Origin: a virus
Length of the DNA stretch: 20,862 bases
Direction: 5' to 3' (one strand)
IMG/VR virus record: IMGVR_UViG_3300031578_000415
Span: 1 to 20,862 of that record
Part shown: positions 4,453 through 18,762 of the stretch, in pieces
Numbering within the stretch: the stretch's first letter is position 1
Layout: each line of letters begins with the position of its first letter
Made by a program: the position numbers and the translations under genes
Notes under the pieces: model-generated
The model's input: the letters and a program-made list of their open reading frames with translations, nothing else
The model's database searches: none
What the model was told of the DNA's origin: nothing

Positions 4453-7437
4453 TTATGCAAACGTCATAAGTGGCTGGCGGCGTAGCCGCTCTAACGCGAT
4501 GTTGCAGAAGTTCCACGCATGAACGGTGTGCGGATCCATCCCTAGATTCACCCACTCCATTCTGAACCTACCGACGTCTTCATCTACCACAGTTTTCTGT
4601 CGGATGATCTTGGTCATGTGCAGGTAGAAGTATGTCCGCATCAAAGCCTGGGGCTCGTAACGTCCGCTCTCCAATCCTCGAGCGGTTTGGACCAGGCGGT
4701 CTGGGTGACCCCACTCACAGTTGTGGTTTCCGATCTCAGACAAGGCGAAGTCGATTGACAGGTAGCGATTCAGGATGCAGGTGTATTTGAATTTGATCTT
4801 GGGTCCGCCGCGCCGAGTGGTCAGCTTCTCCTTAGGTCTGTCACCCCACTGAACGATGTCCCTCTGAGTCCCGCGGCTGTCGAGGTACCAGGCCACAAAT
4901 ACGCGCTTGGGGAAGGCCCGTGCGAAGTCCATCGCTTCGTTCGCGTTGGGCATGGCGTCGATGATGCAGAGGTTGACGCGGTAGTCCTTCATGAGCTGGT
5001 AGAGACGTTTGAACGGTGTGATCCTTTGTCCTGCCTCCATGTAGAGAGGATTCATGGAGTCTATGATCTCGTAGTGAATGATCCTCTTTTTAGTCTCAGT
5101 GCGTTCAGCGATCACCACGTAGTTGACACCGCTCATCTGGTCAACACCCATGGCGATCTGGGAGATCTTGCTGTGAGCTGGGCCCCAAACCACTTCAGGA
5201 TTCTCGCTGGCGATCAGGTCCTCAGTCGTAACGGGTACGTTCTCCTCGTCCACGTAGGGCTTGCCCAGCTTGGCGTTGTAGAACTCCTTGATGTTCTGGG
5301 TCGTCTGCCAAGCACGCCACACCTCCGAAGGGGAGATGTACCGGCTCATCATCTGGTGGATGTGGTAGCTCGAGATGTGGGCACCAGGATTGTGCTGCAC
5401 GAAGCGACCATTTTGCGGGTCATTGATCCGGGTCTTGCACCGGGGGCAGCGGTAGTAGATCTCCTCATCAGTGATCGCCACGCAGTCGGGCCAACAGTCC
5501 GACAAGATCACTCCGTCCGGACAGTTGTGGACGAGCAATCCACTATCAGCGAGAACAAAATTCTCATTGTCAGCCACCGAGATGCATCCCACATGAGCCT
5601 GCCCCGCTGGCTCTCGGCTCTTAATGGACACCGTGGACATTGATCCTTCTGAAGACAACTTACCTAACCGAGGCTTATTGAAATGGGACTCAGGGTTGTA
5701 TTGAAGTTCCCAGGCAGGTCTCTTTCCTTCAGACTCTCTGTACGTTACATATAGTGGAGTCCCCAACCGAAGACCGAGGAACACCAGTTGATCCTTTAGC
5801 TCAAAAGATGTAGTGCAGCATGACCACTGCCGACTACTATCATACCCACGACCGTCTTTGTCTCGAATAAACCGATGGCCATCCCCAGCAAGGTAGCCCT
5901 CCATCGCTACGTTAATTTGATCCTTTGATCCCAGCATTACAGCAGAGGGAAATCTCTTGTTCTGGCAGCCCTTATTGCACTCCTCGAACAATCGAATCAA
6001 ATCTGGCCGAGACGTGATGCTGACATCTACCCCAGACTCCACTTCATTCACGGGCAGATTATTCAAACCTGCCCATCTCAACACAGCATCTCGCAGAGGC
6101 TTGCCTTCAATCTGTGCAAAGTTGATCCAGGTATTTGCTTTCCATGATCCCTCAGCAACATATGCACCAATTGCGTACAGCGTCAGGTTATCCCAAGGTG
6201 TTTGACAAGCTGCTGTCTGGCCTTTTTGAAATCCAACATGGGAGCCAGTGTTGGGAATCTCTCGAGCTACAAGAACACTACTAACTCGTTCTTGCTGCTC
6301 AGCTGGCGTGGTTGCAATAGGAATCTCCCCAATCGGTACTGCTTTAGTTCGTGCATGCTTCCGCCCAGCATGCTGAAAGAATGGATGATCTTCCGTGACA
6401 CCAACCTTAGCCCCATTACGAAAAGTAGCCTCAATGATGCTCTTGACACCATTGTCGTGAAATTTGGTGATCGGCTTGTACTGCCAAATCTTATGGTGCA
6501 GGTTCCACGAGAGGGCTTCGTACTGCGTATATGTAGTCCTTAGTTCGTCAAGGCCTACTGCTTCTGGAATCAGTGACCCAATCTTGCGAGCAATGATCTT
6601 CTGGCAAAGAGGAAAGCAGTTGCACTTGGTGTGCCAGTAGTTCTGTGTCCCTTCCAGGAACCGGCGGTGGATGTCCGCGTGGGGGTATCCGGCGGTGGAG
6701 ACGTGCATGATCATCTTGTAGATGGAGTGACTGATGCGCTCGTAGGCCTGATCGATATCCTGCGCCGGAAGTAGCCGGACCTCATCAAAGGCGATGAAGT
6801 CGAACGGTGTGGAGTCCTTCGAAGCTACACCACCCAGATGCCGAAGGTAGAGGGCCGACTCCTTTCCGATCTTCTTATATCCGATCGTGTCGGTGTCCTG
6901 CACAGCCTCGATCAACTGGGCATTAGACTGCACCAGGGGCGTCAGGCGGTCCTTGGAGAGTAGGTTGACGCCGTCCTGGGTTGGGAAGAAGAAACAAGCC
7001 TTGGCGGAGCGGTAGAGGCAGAACCAGAAGATCTTCAACAGGACGAAGATGGTGGCCCCCATCTGGGCCGACTTCATCAGCACGAACTCCTGAGCCCGAT
7101 CCAAATACATAGGGATCAAGTATTTGTGGGAATCGATGTCGAACGGTTTGTGGTCTACTTTGATCCCCGACGTACATGCCCACAACAGGAAGTTGTGTCT
7201 CTTCAGAGCTTCCAGGTCTTCCGGGCTGATGCTAGCTGGAGACAGGGAAGACAAGTCTGCTTCCTCGAATTTGCCTCCAGGAGGAGCCAGGCCATCGAAG
7301 ATGTCCTGAACGGGTGTAACCACCCTTTCGACCTTCACGGCTGTTCGGGTCGATTTGACCTTCACAGCAGTTCGAGTAGGCGGTGGTGTTTTCCCAGGCC
7401 TATTCGGAGGGGGAGTCTTTTTTGGTGCGGTTGCCAT
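4453..7437 (-). CDS. Large terminase subunit (GpA type) interrupted by an intein
   Basis: The 994-residue precursor is the packaging motor and nuclease that translocates phage DNA into the prohead. After a basic Lys/Pro tail it shows a deviant Walker A, KSAQMGAT (residues 122-129), like lambda gpA (lysine at the start rather than before T), and Walker B FIAFDE (D218/E219). A zinc-ribbon-like segment and a C-terminal RNase H-like nuclease follow, with GVDQM (D766) and CIIDAM (D827). Residues 274-638 are an intein, so the spliced product would be about 629 residues, normal for GpA terminases. ATG 7437 is preferred to GTG 7443 because AAGGTGACC directly precedes it. The ribosome binding site lies inside the NYN gene, which overlaps by 38 bases. 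No small terminase or portal gene is adjacent, which is unusual. Confidence 0.93.
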   Translation of the reverse strand: MATAPKKTPPPNRPGKTPPPTRTAVKVKSTRTAVKVERVVTPVQDIFDGLAPPGGKFEEADLSSLSPASISPEDLEALKRHNFLLWACTSGIKVDHKPFDIDSHKYLIPMYLDRAQEFVLMKSAQMGATIFVLLKIFWFCLYRSAKACFFFPTQDGVNLLSKDRLTPLVQSNAQLIEAVQDTDTIGYKKIGKESALYLRHLGGVASKDSTPFDFIAFDEVRLLPAQDIDQAYERISHSIYKMIMHVSTAGYPHADIHRRFLEGTQNYWHTKCNCFPLCQKIIARKIGSLIPEAVGLDELRTTYTQYEALSWNLHHKIWQYKPITKFHDNGVKSIIEATFRNGAKVGVTEDHPFFQHAGRKHARTKAVPIGEIPIATTPAEQQERVSSVLVAREIPNTGSHVGFQKGQTAACQTPWDNLTLYAIGAYVAEGSWKANTWINFAQIEGKPLRDAVLRWAGLNNLPVNEVESGVDVSITSRPDLIRLFEECNKGCQNKRFPSAVMLGSKDQINVAMEGYLAGDGHRFIRDKDGRGYDSSRQWSCCTTSFELKDQLVFLGLRLGTPLYVTYRESEGKRPAWELQYNPESHFNKPRLGKLSSEGSMSTVSIKSREPAGQAHVGCISVADNENFVLADSGLLVHNCPDGVILSDCWPDCVAITDEEIYYRCPRCKTRINDPQNGRFVQHNPGAHISSYHIHQMMSRYISPSEVWRAWQTTQNIKEFYNAKLGKPYVDEENVPVTTEDLIASENPEVVWGPAHSKISQIAMGVDQMSGVNYVVIAERTETKKRIIHYEIIDSMNPLYMEAGQRITPFKRLYQLMKDYRVNLCIIDAMPNANEAMDFARAFPKRVFVAWYLDSRGTQRDIVQWGDRPKEKLTTRRGGPKIKFKYTCILNRYLSIDFALSEIGNHNCEWGHPDRLVQTARGLESGRYEPQALMRTYFYLHMTKIIRQKTVVDEDVGRFRMEWVNLGMDPHTVHAWNFCNIALERLRRQPLMTFA
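5524..6618 (-). other. Intein with LAGLIDADG homing endonuclease in terminase
   Basis: Residues 274-638 of the terminase precursor (365 residues) form an in-frame protein intron. The N-terminal junction is N|CFPLCQKIIARKIGS (block A). Block B is GVTEDHPFF, with T348 and H351. Two endonuclease motifs are visible, AIGAYVAEG (about 422-430) and MEGYLAGDG (512-520), with E429 and D519 as candidate catalytic acids. The end reads FVLADSGLLVHN|C, giving the penultimate His637, terminal Asn638 and Cys639 as first residue of the C-extein. All residues needed for class 1 splicing are present, so it should be active. By eye, the segment has lower GC content than the flanking terminase, consistent with acquisition. 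The flanks rejoin as HTKCN-CPDGV. Confidence 0.93.
7324..7377 (-). repeat. Two-copy 27-base tandem repeat in terminase N-tail
   Basis: Two adjacent 9-residue units, TRTAVKVKS and TRTAVKVER, occur at terminase residues 21-38, directly after two KTPPP motifs. At the DNA level both contain GTGAAGGTC and similar flanks, indicating a tandem duplication that has drifted. The tail is basic and probably disordered. Confidence 0.75.
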
Positions 7438-8017
7438 GGTCACCTTGTTTGGTCCTTGTCTCTATGAAGATCTCATTTTTGGATATAAATAGGATCGAAT
7501 CGGCAACCGCGTACAAGAGACTGGACGTTCTTTGTTCCACTGTGACGACTTCGGTCTTCTTGCCTCGATCGTGCAGCTCTCGAAGCAGGAGGGCGTAGTC
7601 TCCGTCTCCGGAGGCCAGCACGAAGGTGTCGTAGTCGTCAGCAGCGTTGATCGCGTCGATGGTGATGCCCACGTCCCAGTCCGTGTGAAACGCCTTCTTC
7701 GTGCCCTTCTCCTCCCTCATCTTTCGGGTTTTGACGTCGTACCCGAGAGCCGCCAGGTAGTAGAGGAATCGAGAGTTGCGAGAGGCGTACTGCTTCACGG
7801 TCTTCCCTGTGTCGTCGACCTTTCGATAGGGAAGAGATATGGCGTAGGCTACAAGCGTCAACCGACGCGGTCTTGTCTCAGTCTGCCTATTTTGGATCAG
7901 GTTCTTGATTGCGCTGTAGTCAACGCGTGCGTCAACCCCAAACACCTCACGGCAAGAGTGCCAGAGGTTGTTCACATCGATCGCTACGTATACGCGTTCT
8001 TCTGAGGTCGGAGTCAT
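7400..8017 (-). CDS. NYN/LabA-like PIN-superfamily nuclease
   Basis: The protein of about 205 residues has the NYN (DUF88/LabA-like) fold. Conserved acidic residues sit in YVAIDVNNLWHS (D14, N16, N17), HTDWDVGITIDAI (D113 and D115) and FVLASGDGDYALLL (D138, D140), the three carboxylate blocks of the PIN/NYN superfamily. Members are metal-dependent ribonucleases, some acting on tRNA or mRNA. A role in degrading or processing host RNA is inference. The start is uncertain: ATG 8017 is given, while TTG 8032 adds five residues; neither has a strong ribosome binding site. Its 3' end overlaps the terminase start and contains that gene's ribosome binding site, so the two are probably translationally coupled. 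Confidence 0.88.
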   Translation of the reverse strand: MTPTSEERVYVAIDVNNLWHSCREVFGVDARVDYSAIKNLIQNRQTETRPRRLTLVAYAISLPYRKVDDTGKTVKQYASRNSRFLYYLAALGYDVKTRKMREEKGTKKAFHTDWDVGITIDAINAADDYDTFVLASGDGDYALLLRELHDRGKKTEVVTVEQRTSSLLYAVADSILFISKNEIFIETRTKQGDHGNRTKKDSPSE

Positions 8018-8037
8018 CGGGGTGTCGTCCAATGGGA

Positions 8038-17448: not shown

Positions 17449-18762
17449 CTACTTGCGCTTACCGGTCGCCTGCTCCATCTCCTCCATCAGAGAATCGGCA
17501 GCCGACTTTCCGCCAGCCTTGCCCCCCGGTTTGGGCTTCCCAGGAGCCTTCCCAGGCCCCTTCTTCCCCGGAGCCTTCTTCGCCTTGGCAGCGTCGAGGG
17601 CGGCGATACGCTTGCCACAGCGAGCGTACAGAGGGCACTCCTTGCAGGTGTCGTCGTCCCCGTCGTACTGACGGGCCGTACCGAAGCACCCGATGTGGAC
17701 GGAGGTGCCATGGGCGTCCTGGACCGCCACGTTGGTGGGGTCCTCGATTTGCTCATCCGCGAGCTGATCGAAGTCCAGGTAGCCCTCATCGTCCACGGGA
17801 GGCCACGCCTCGGCCTGTACTCCGTTTCCTCCGTTCTCCTCCTCCTCCGGAGTCTCTTCCTCCTCCTCCTCCGGAGTCTCTTCCTCCTCCTCCGGAGTCT
17901 CTTCCTCCTCCTCCTCGGGCTCCTCCTCCTTTGCCTTCGCCTTCGGAGCCAGCTTCTTCGTCGGCTTCTTCTTCGTCGACGACTTGGCCTTAGCTTCCTC
18001 CAGCTTCTTGGCCTCCTCGGGATCGACGCCCTCCATGATGGCGATGATCTCGGCCGCCGACTTCACCTGCTGGACCATGTCCAGGTTGTGGAGCGTGGGA
18101 TCGTCATCCGGCACCGGAGCTTCCGAAGTGTTCTTCTCCAGACGCACGCGGTACTTGGTGTTGAGGTCCTTGCCCTCCTTGGTGATGATGACGTTGTACC
18201 CCTCTTCGAGGTCCGTCATGTCGATCTCATCGTTGTAGTAGTCCAGCAGCTCCTTGAAGATCATGCTGCCGAACCCGAACACCTGGATCTTCGGGGCGCC
18301 CACATCGGGGAGACGGTTCTCCTCCACGCCCCCGCCGATCATCTCGTCGACGTTCTCCTGGGTCCACTCGGGGTCTTCCAGGTCGATGGCGTTGACGAAG
18401 AGGCGCATGCGAGCACGCATCGACTTGGCCAGCTCGAGGTCTGCCGGATCGCCCGTGGCACGGAGACGCTCCACCTCATCACAGACGGGGCACTCACCTC
18501 CACCCGGCGGTGTCTTCTTTGGGCAAGCGAGCGTCTTCTTGTTGTCGTCATCAGGACCGATGCCCCAGTGGGTCCAGACTTCACGCCACCACTGGAAGGC
18601 GTTGACGCCTTCGTCGGTCCAGGGGGGCATGACCCTGACGCGGTTCTTGCCACTCTTCAGCTTGAGGAACGGCATGGGGCCGAAGTTCCCCATCGCTGCT
18701 GCTCGGGCAGCTTCCTCCGCTGCCTTTTGTTTGGATTTGCCGATGTCCGCTTTGATTGCCAT
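17449..18762 (-). CDS. T4 gp32-like single-stranded DNA-binding protein, extended
   Basis: The 437-residue protein matches gp32-type SSBs in its N-terminal half: a basic start, FLKLKSGKNRVRVMPPW, and a zinc site with H65, C80, C91 and C94 (spacing close to that of T4 gp32), followed by RLFVNAIDLEDPE. It binds and protects single-stranded DNA and recruits partners. Beyond about residue 245 it differs: a basic linker, a Glu-rich repeat (281-309), a second cysteine set C359, C373, C376 and C382 (CFG then CKECPLYARC), a Lys/Gly/Pro tail, and an acidic SLMEEMEQ near the end. The start has AAGGAGATCAAAG upstream. It is longer than T4 gp32 (301 residues). The second cluster might bind zinc or Fe-S. 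Confidence 0.85.
   Translation of the reverse strand: MAIKADIGKSKQKAAEEAARAAAMGNFGPMPFLKLKSGKNRVRVMPPWTDEGVNAFQWWREVWTHWGIGPDDDNKKTLACPKKTPPGGGECPVCDEVERLRATGDPADLELAKSMRARMRLFVNAIDLEDPEWTQENVDEMIGGGVEENRLPDVGAPKIQVFGFGSMIFKELLDYYNDEIDMTDLEEGYNVIITKEGKDLNTKYRVRLEKNTSEAPVPDDDPTLHNLDMVQQVKSAAEIIAIMEGVDPEEAKKLEEAKAKSSTKKKPTKKLAPKAKAKEEEPEEEEEETPEEEEETPEEEEEETPEEEENGGNGVQAEAWPPVDDEGYLDFDQLADEQIEDPTNVAVQDAHGTSVHIGCFGTARQYDGDDDTCKECPLYARCGKRIAALDAAKAKKAPGKKGPGKAPGKPKPGGKAGGKSAADSLMEEMEQATGKRK
17836..17922 (-). repeat. Acidic ETPEEEE coding repeat in SSB
   Basis: Residues 281-309 of the SSB contain three ETP units at 288, 295 and 303 separated by glutamate runs, that is 7- and 8-residue spacing (21 and 24 bases). 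The DNA shows repeated TCCGGAGTCTCTTCC blocks with TCC runs, prone to slippage. The acidic tract is likely a flexible linker or a DNA mimic of the kind that regulates SSBs. Confidence 0.85.

Follow-up and report, generated by a model that had tools for sequence, protein, structure and literature searches.

The terminase gene and its insert

The window, i.e. the whole stretch of DNA that was analysed, comprises 20,862 bases and is an unassigned virus record. On its minus strand lies the gene for a GpA-type terminase large subunit, which contains an intein in frame (Table 1). The neighbouring genes encode a dNMP kinase, RecA, a gp32-like single-strand binding protein, DNA polymerase A, SbcC/SbcD-like and RuvC-like proteins and an RNase H, a neighbourhood that fits a large tailed phage. 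Directly upstream of the terminase gene, and overlapping its start, there is a gene for an NYN-domain protein (putative RNase; 7400-8032, minus strand). The gene for the gp32-like protein has in-frame tandem repeats at 17836-17930, which encode an acidic TPEEEEE-like tract.

The terminase matches the GpA_ATPase HMM in its precursor form (9e-10) and also the phrog_675 (TerL) family (6e-81). When the two exteins are joined, the Pfam GpA_ATPase score rises from 39.0 bits (profile positions 25-198) to 46.4 bits (25-239; cut-off 25.6). Since the match is lengthened across the splice point, the domain is broken by the insert at that place. The joined exteins also give a GpA_nuclease match of 21.4 bits, slightly below the cut-off of 22.5. 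With both the GpA_ATPase and the GpA_nuclease domain recognisable in its sequence, the protein is a large subunit of the GpA family. Residues are numbered here from the GTG at 7443; in the earlier note on this DNA they were counted from the ATG at 7437, and its Cys274 and Cys639 correspond to 276 and 641 in our numbering.

Table 1. Positions of the terminase gene, its intein and the residues discussed in the text.
Feature	Position	Strand	Basis or remark
GpA-type terminase large subunit precursor gene, with in-frame intein	4453..7443	-	996 aa from GTG 7443; alternative ATG 7437; GpA_ATPase and phrog_675 matches
N-extein, residues 1-275	6619..7443	-	ATPase domain, ends ...YWHTKCN; empty-site relatives L002-L005
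Empty second site, STAGYPH/A, residues 255/256	6676..6681	-	Site of the homologous inteins of L032 and L033
Cys274, at -2 relative to the intein, putative first ligand in knuckle 1	6622..6624	-	Cys in all 90 terminases that span this region
Intein, 365 aa, residues 276-640, class 1, LAGLIDADG homing endonuclease	5524..6618	-	HMM matches at both ends, alignment, GC3
Intein Cys1 (precursor residue 276), in place of the second ligand in the precursor	6616..6618	-	Alignment
Intein Cys5	6604..6606	-	Alignment; Asp5 in L033, Asn5 in L032
Block B, TEDH (Thr and His of TxxH), residues 350-353	6385..6396	-	Alignment
Block C, IGAYVAEG, first LAGLIDADG motif	6148..6171	-	Alignment
Block E, LAGDGH, second LAGLIDADG motif	5875..5892	-	Alignment
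Intein Cys345 at F:4	5584..5586	-	Alignment; Asp in relatives
Intein terminal His-Asn (VHN/C)	5524..5529	-	Alignment, TIGR01443 match
C-extein, residues 641-996	4453..5523	-	Rest of zinc ribbon and nuclease domain; domain and family matches
Cys641 (spliced 276), +1 splicing nucleophile and probable second ligand of knuckle 1	5521..5523	-	Cys in 90/90; present in intein-free relatives
Cys654 of WPDC (spliced 289), extra cysteine outside both knuckles	5482..5484	-	Cys in 74/90
CPRC, knuckle 2, Cys666 and Cys669 (spliced 301 and 304)	5437..5448	-	CxxC 68, CxxxH 21, HxxC 1 of 90

The intein is recognised at its C-terminus by TIGR01443 (1.6e-4, 21.8 bits; cut-off 15.6) and at its N-terminus by TIGR01445 (1.2e-4, just below the cut-off), while the Intein_splicing HMM gives 1.6e-5 and 25 bits, below the Pfam curated cut-off of 35.8. 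Its GC3 is 0.47 and that of the two exteins 0.72 and 0.75, a difference expected of a recent arrival. A cysteine at position 1, the TxxH of block B, the terminal His-Asn and a cysteine at +1 are all present, as in class 1 inteins, while the Asp at F:4 is replaced by Cys345. This Asp is common in class 1 but is not a strict requirement of the class. There are two LAGLIDADG motifs, each with an acidic residue, and from what is known of the family the intein would be expected to act as a homing endonuclease.

It is important to point out that block A of the intein reads CFPLC, where the homologous intein of locus L033 has CxxGDT in the alignment. With a block A that lacks GDT and a cysteine at F:4, splicing may be slow or unusual. 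The previous remark that the residue set looks fully active is thus nearly right: Cys1, TEDH, His-Asn-Cys and the two LAGLIDADG motifs are in place, but block A and F:4 deviate. The cysteine at F:4 also prompted us to consider class 3, whose members have no nucleophile at position 1 and carry the WCT set, i.e. W at B:12, C at F:4 and T at G:5 (PMC5050341, PMC7664689). This identity is ruled out, as Cys1 is present and B:12 and G:5 are Phe and Val, respectively. In the AlphaFold2 model of the precursor, the intein has pLDDT values mostly below 50 and is not folded in the prediction.

Intein-free alleles and the second insertion site

The search for intein-less alleles that the earlier note had called for was successful. 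Four loci (L002-L005), representing three distinct terminase sequences that are 73-75% identical to the window over the exteins, read uninterrupted through the site as WH[ST][KR]CNCPDGV[IV]LSEVWPDC...YYRCPRC. Because these relatives are continuous, the ends of the window intein are precise, and the interval 5524-6618 given previously is exact to the base. The proposed rejoining of the exteins as HTKCN-CPDGV is likewise borne out, and YYRCPRC is indeed found downstream, about 22 residues past the splice point. At the DNA level, 14-19 of the 20 bases on each side of the empty site match the flanks in the window.

Searching viral contigs with the intein alone yielded no close relatives, and tblastn against phage records gave merely weak partial matches to mycobacteriophage inteins. 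The DNA patterns HNCPDGV and VHNCxDGV revealed no second intein at the ribbon site; besides L120 (see below), the matches look like chance. Two homologous inteins, in L032 (IMG/VR 3300031834_002271) and L033 (IMG/VR 3300014502_000004), were recovered by profile search only. The one in L033 (1966-3036; E 1e-42 to the window intein) is full length with endonuclease, and the one in L032 (2198-2638) is a mini-intein that has lost it. They share with the window intein the same gene and the same terminase clade, and the terminases are ca 61-62% identical to that of the window over aligned columns. However, both insert at STAG[YL]PN/S, which lies 20 residues upstream of the zinc-knuckle site and outside the ribbon. 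The +1 residue is Ser, F:4 is Asp in both, and position 5 is Asp in L033 and Asn in L032, whereas the window intein has Cys at both positions.

This second site is close to the presumed terminase coupling motif, which is STAG here and STP in SPO1. Loci L026 and L029 have the same residues there and no intein. In the maximum-likelihood tree, the window is inside a fully supported clade with three intein-free relatives, and L032 and L033 are found together in another one. Two sites of one gene, 20 residues from each other, have thus been taken by one intein family; separate gains are the simplest account.

The zinc ribbon

Terminase homologues were gathered from viral contigs, genomes and phage records, and 91 distinct sequences were aligned. 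One of them, L108, does not extend over the region, and the counts below refer to the remaining 90. The earlier note took the +1 cysteine for a probable metal ligand as well, and looked to homologues without cysteines at these positions for a refutation. The alignment does not provide it, as every one of the 90 keeps both knuckle 1 cysteines, and knuckle 2 consists of Cys/His throughout. The spacing within knuckle 1 is CxC in 29, CxxC in 54 and CxxxxC in 7 cases. In knuckle 2, Cys301 is present in 89 of the 90 terminases and the fourth ligand position is Cys or His in all of them. Exchange between Cys and His at a fixed position is seen for zinc ligands and not for disulfide cysteines, and the exchange at knuckle 2 therefore makes the ribbon positions typical of zinc ligands.

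The conservation pattern, with two knuckles of Cys/His, is that of a putative zinc ribbon, for which zinc binding would be expected from what is known of the family. It is, on the same alignment, very likely that the +1 splicing nucleophile is a native zinc ligand. The AlphaFold2 model of the intein-free terminase of L005 has pLDDT values of ca 96-97 over residues 260-310. Three strands (265-269, 287-289, 294-297) surround the two knuckles, and the fold of the model matches that of large terminases. A PDB sequence search with the terminase profile returned no terminase and no solved relative.

In the precursor, the KCN at the end of the N-extein is followed by Cys1 of the intein, which creates a C-x-C pseudo-knuckle already before splicing. 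The statement that only splicing restores the knuckle is therefore correct in that the native C-N-C is rejoined, but the precursor is not devoid of a C-x-C. Counting Cys-2, Cys1, Cys5, the cysteine at F:4 and Cys+1, up to five thiols are located at or near the splice junctions.

Proposed splicing route and alternatives

We consider it highly probable that a mobile class 1 intein, equipped with a LAGLIDADG endonuclease, is situated between Asn275 and Cys276 (spliced numbering) in knuckle 1 of the zinc ribbon of a GpA-family TerL, that it splices in the standard manner, and that the +1 cysteine then binds zinc. The ribbon interrupted in this way connects the ATPase domain with the nuclease domain. 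Starting from the precursor, Cys1 would bring about an N-S acyl shift on Asn(-1), and the native ribbon cysteine at +1 would attack to give a branched thioester. Next, the terminal Asn would cyclise, aided by the penultimate His, and an S-N shift would join CN to CP. The released +1 thiol, together with Cys274, Cys301 and Cys304, would then hold the zinc. That the window intein splices is what its family would lead one to expect, and packaging activity only after splicing can safely be assumed, as it can wherever an essential protein contains an intein.

The choice of the site is explained most simply by the preference of inteins for strongly conserved positions with Cys/Ser/Thr at +1, and not by selection for a zinc switch. 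Inteins naturally target conserved cysteines, and the coincidence with a zinc ligand therefore needs no regulatory explanation. In this default form of the best explanation, which is probably the correct one, an invariant Cys/Ser/Thr suitable for +1 is often a zinc ligand in this protein, and nothing is coupled beyond the need to splice. Three of the eight Cys/Ser/Thr positions that are at least 90% conserved in the terminase are ribbon ligands, so that hitting a ligand is unsurprising. The same intein family is also found at STAG[YL]PN/S, where +1 is no ligand, and inteins adjoining invariant residues are a general theme in phage proteins (Kelley 2016, PMC5050341). The extra cysteines at position 5 and F:4 are left over by this explanation, though they may represent drift.

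A different possibility is that the precursor has Cys-2, Cys1 and Cys+1 tied up by Zn2+ or in a disulfide, which would hold back splicing, such that a competent terminase is formed only under permissive conditions. We find this unlikely, although the cysteines at -2, 1, 5, F:4 and +1 place up to five thiols at or near the junctions and the inteins of L032 and L033 carry Asp or Asn at position 5 and Asp at F:4. The five-cysteine arrangement is carried by a single sequence, and a delay brings little obvious benefit in a phage burst.

There are precedents for such control. The site of the MoaA intein of P. abyssi would fall in the radical-SAM CxxC, and the +1 cysteine would thus be a ligand there too. 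In its precursor, a disulfide between Cys-3 and Cys1 blocks splicing (PMC3922620, PMC10663303), and a Cys1/Cys+1 disulfide is known for the Pab PolII intein (PMC3922620). The MoaA system resembles the present one in having an N-extein cysteine near Cys1 and a host protein whose cysteines bind a metal centre. It differs in that MoaA is an iron-sulfur enzyme and has no zinc ribbon, the cysteine is at -3 instead of -2, and the regulation has been tested experimentally.

Zinc reversibly blocks the mycobacterial DnaB intein (PMC7360933), and in the Cryptococcus Prp8 intein it inhibits splicing, with Cys1 and the terminal Asn as its binding residues (PMC6805012). Zinc can thus stop splicing through the catalytic Cys and Asn, but in these cases it sits on the intein itself, and the native metal site is not formed by the exteins. 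That several zinc-inhibited inteins reside in exteins that bind no zinc speaks against such a switch here. By analogy with these systems, metal or redox control of splicing is plausible. The full proposal, in which intein and zinc ribbon form one switch, with the same thiol acting as nucleophile and then as ligand while, before splicing, zinc or a disulfide is held by Cys1 and the cysteines at -2, 5 and F:4, is nevertheless improbable in our judgement. If it were true, the timing of terminase activation during infection would follow the zinc or redox state.

An intein that is dead or only cleaves, leaving the terminase inactive or in two fragments, is very unlikely. Blocks A and F are unusual and some HMM scores are just below the curated cut-offs, but the frame of 996 codons is intact, TxxH, His-Asn and both nucleophiles are retained, the exteins on both sides are conserved (73-75% to the relatives), and the large terminase is essential to a tailed phage. 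Finally, an origin of the insert as a group I intron or through chimeric assembly is extremely unlikely, since the reading frame is kept, both ends of the insert have intein motifs, and homologous inteins were sampled independently in L032 and L033, even if HNH-type elements are known in the same gene family (L031, see below). The group I intron is ruled out in addition by the lack of any Rfam intron match in the window.

Relation to known terminase inteins

The mycobacteriophage TerL inteins (TerL1-a to e, TerL6-f and Pham3880-g) are splicing competent, some with an active LAGLIDADG endonuclease, and are located at functional motifs (PMC5050341). Their host proteins are of the Terminase_1, Terminase_6 or Pham3880 type, with the insertion in the ATPase domain in all seven cases, and none is reported for a GpA-type protein or for the ribbon (PMC5050341). 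Microcystis phage Mic1 TerL (L114) has two inteins (PMC7156551). The second one resembles that of the window in being in a TerL, outside the ATPase core and with Cys at +1 (PMC7156551), but it joins ...QDHL/CDALRY in the nuclease domain of a Terminase_6-type protein, with no ribbon involved. A limited search of the open-access literature turned up no intein described for a GpA-type terminase or its zinc ribbon. Within the literature searched, the ribbon-site intein thus widens the range of terminase inteins by the GpA family and by a previously unreported site. It also offers a natural case in which one residue is the splicing nucleophile and afterwards a probable structural zinc ligand, and in which metal sensing at the host site is directly testable.

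Other homing elements in related loci

In L120 (1-700), an intein end is joined to CIDGVRYV, which resembles the Mic1 nuclease-domain site CDALRY.

In L031 (4781-5445), the terminase stop is immediately followed by an ORF encoding 200 aa, part of which is HNH-like (NHIDGDKTNNKLSNLE). Behind this ORF, the 3' end of the terminase occurs a second time (AWNLCNVALERLRRQPLMTFA) and closes with a stop. The arrangement resembles a homing element that supplies a gene end of its own.

The terminase genes of two Herelleviridae, Lactobacillus phage Semele (L018:2161-3845) and Staphylococcus phage Alsa_2 (L008:2342-3577), seem to be in pieces, with one break around RRWSTP and one after FFYK. This points to introns or homing elements elsewhere in the gene.
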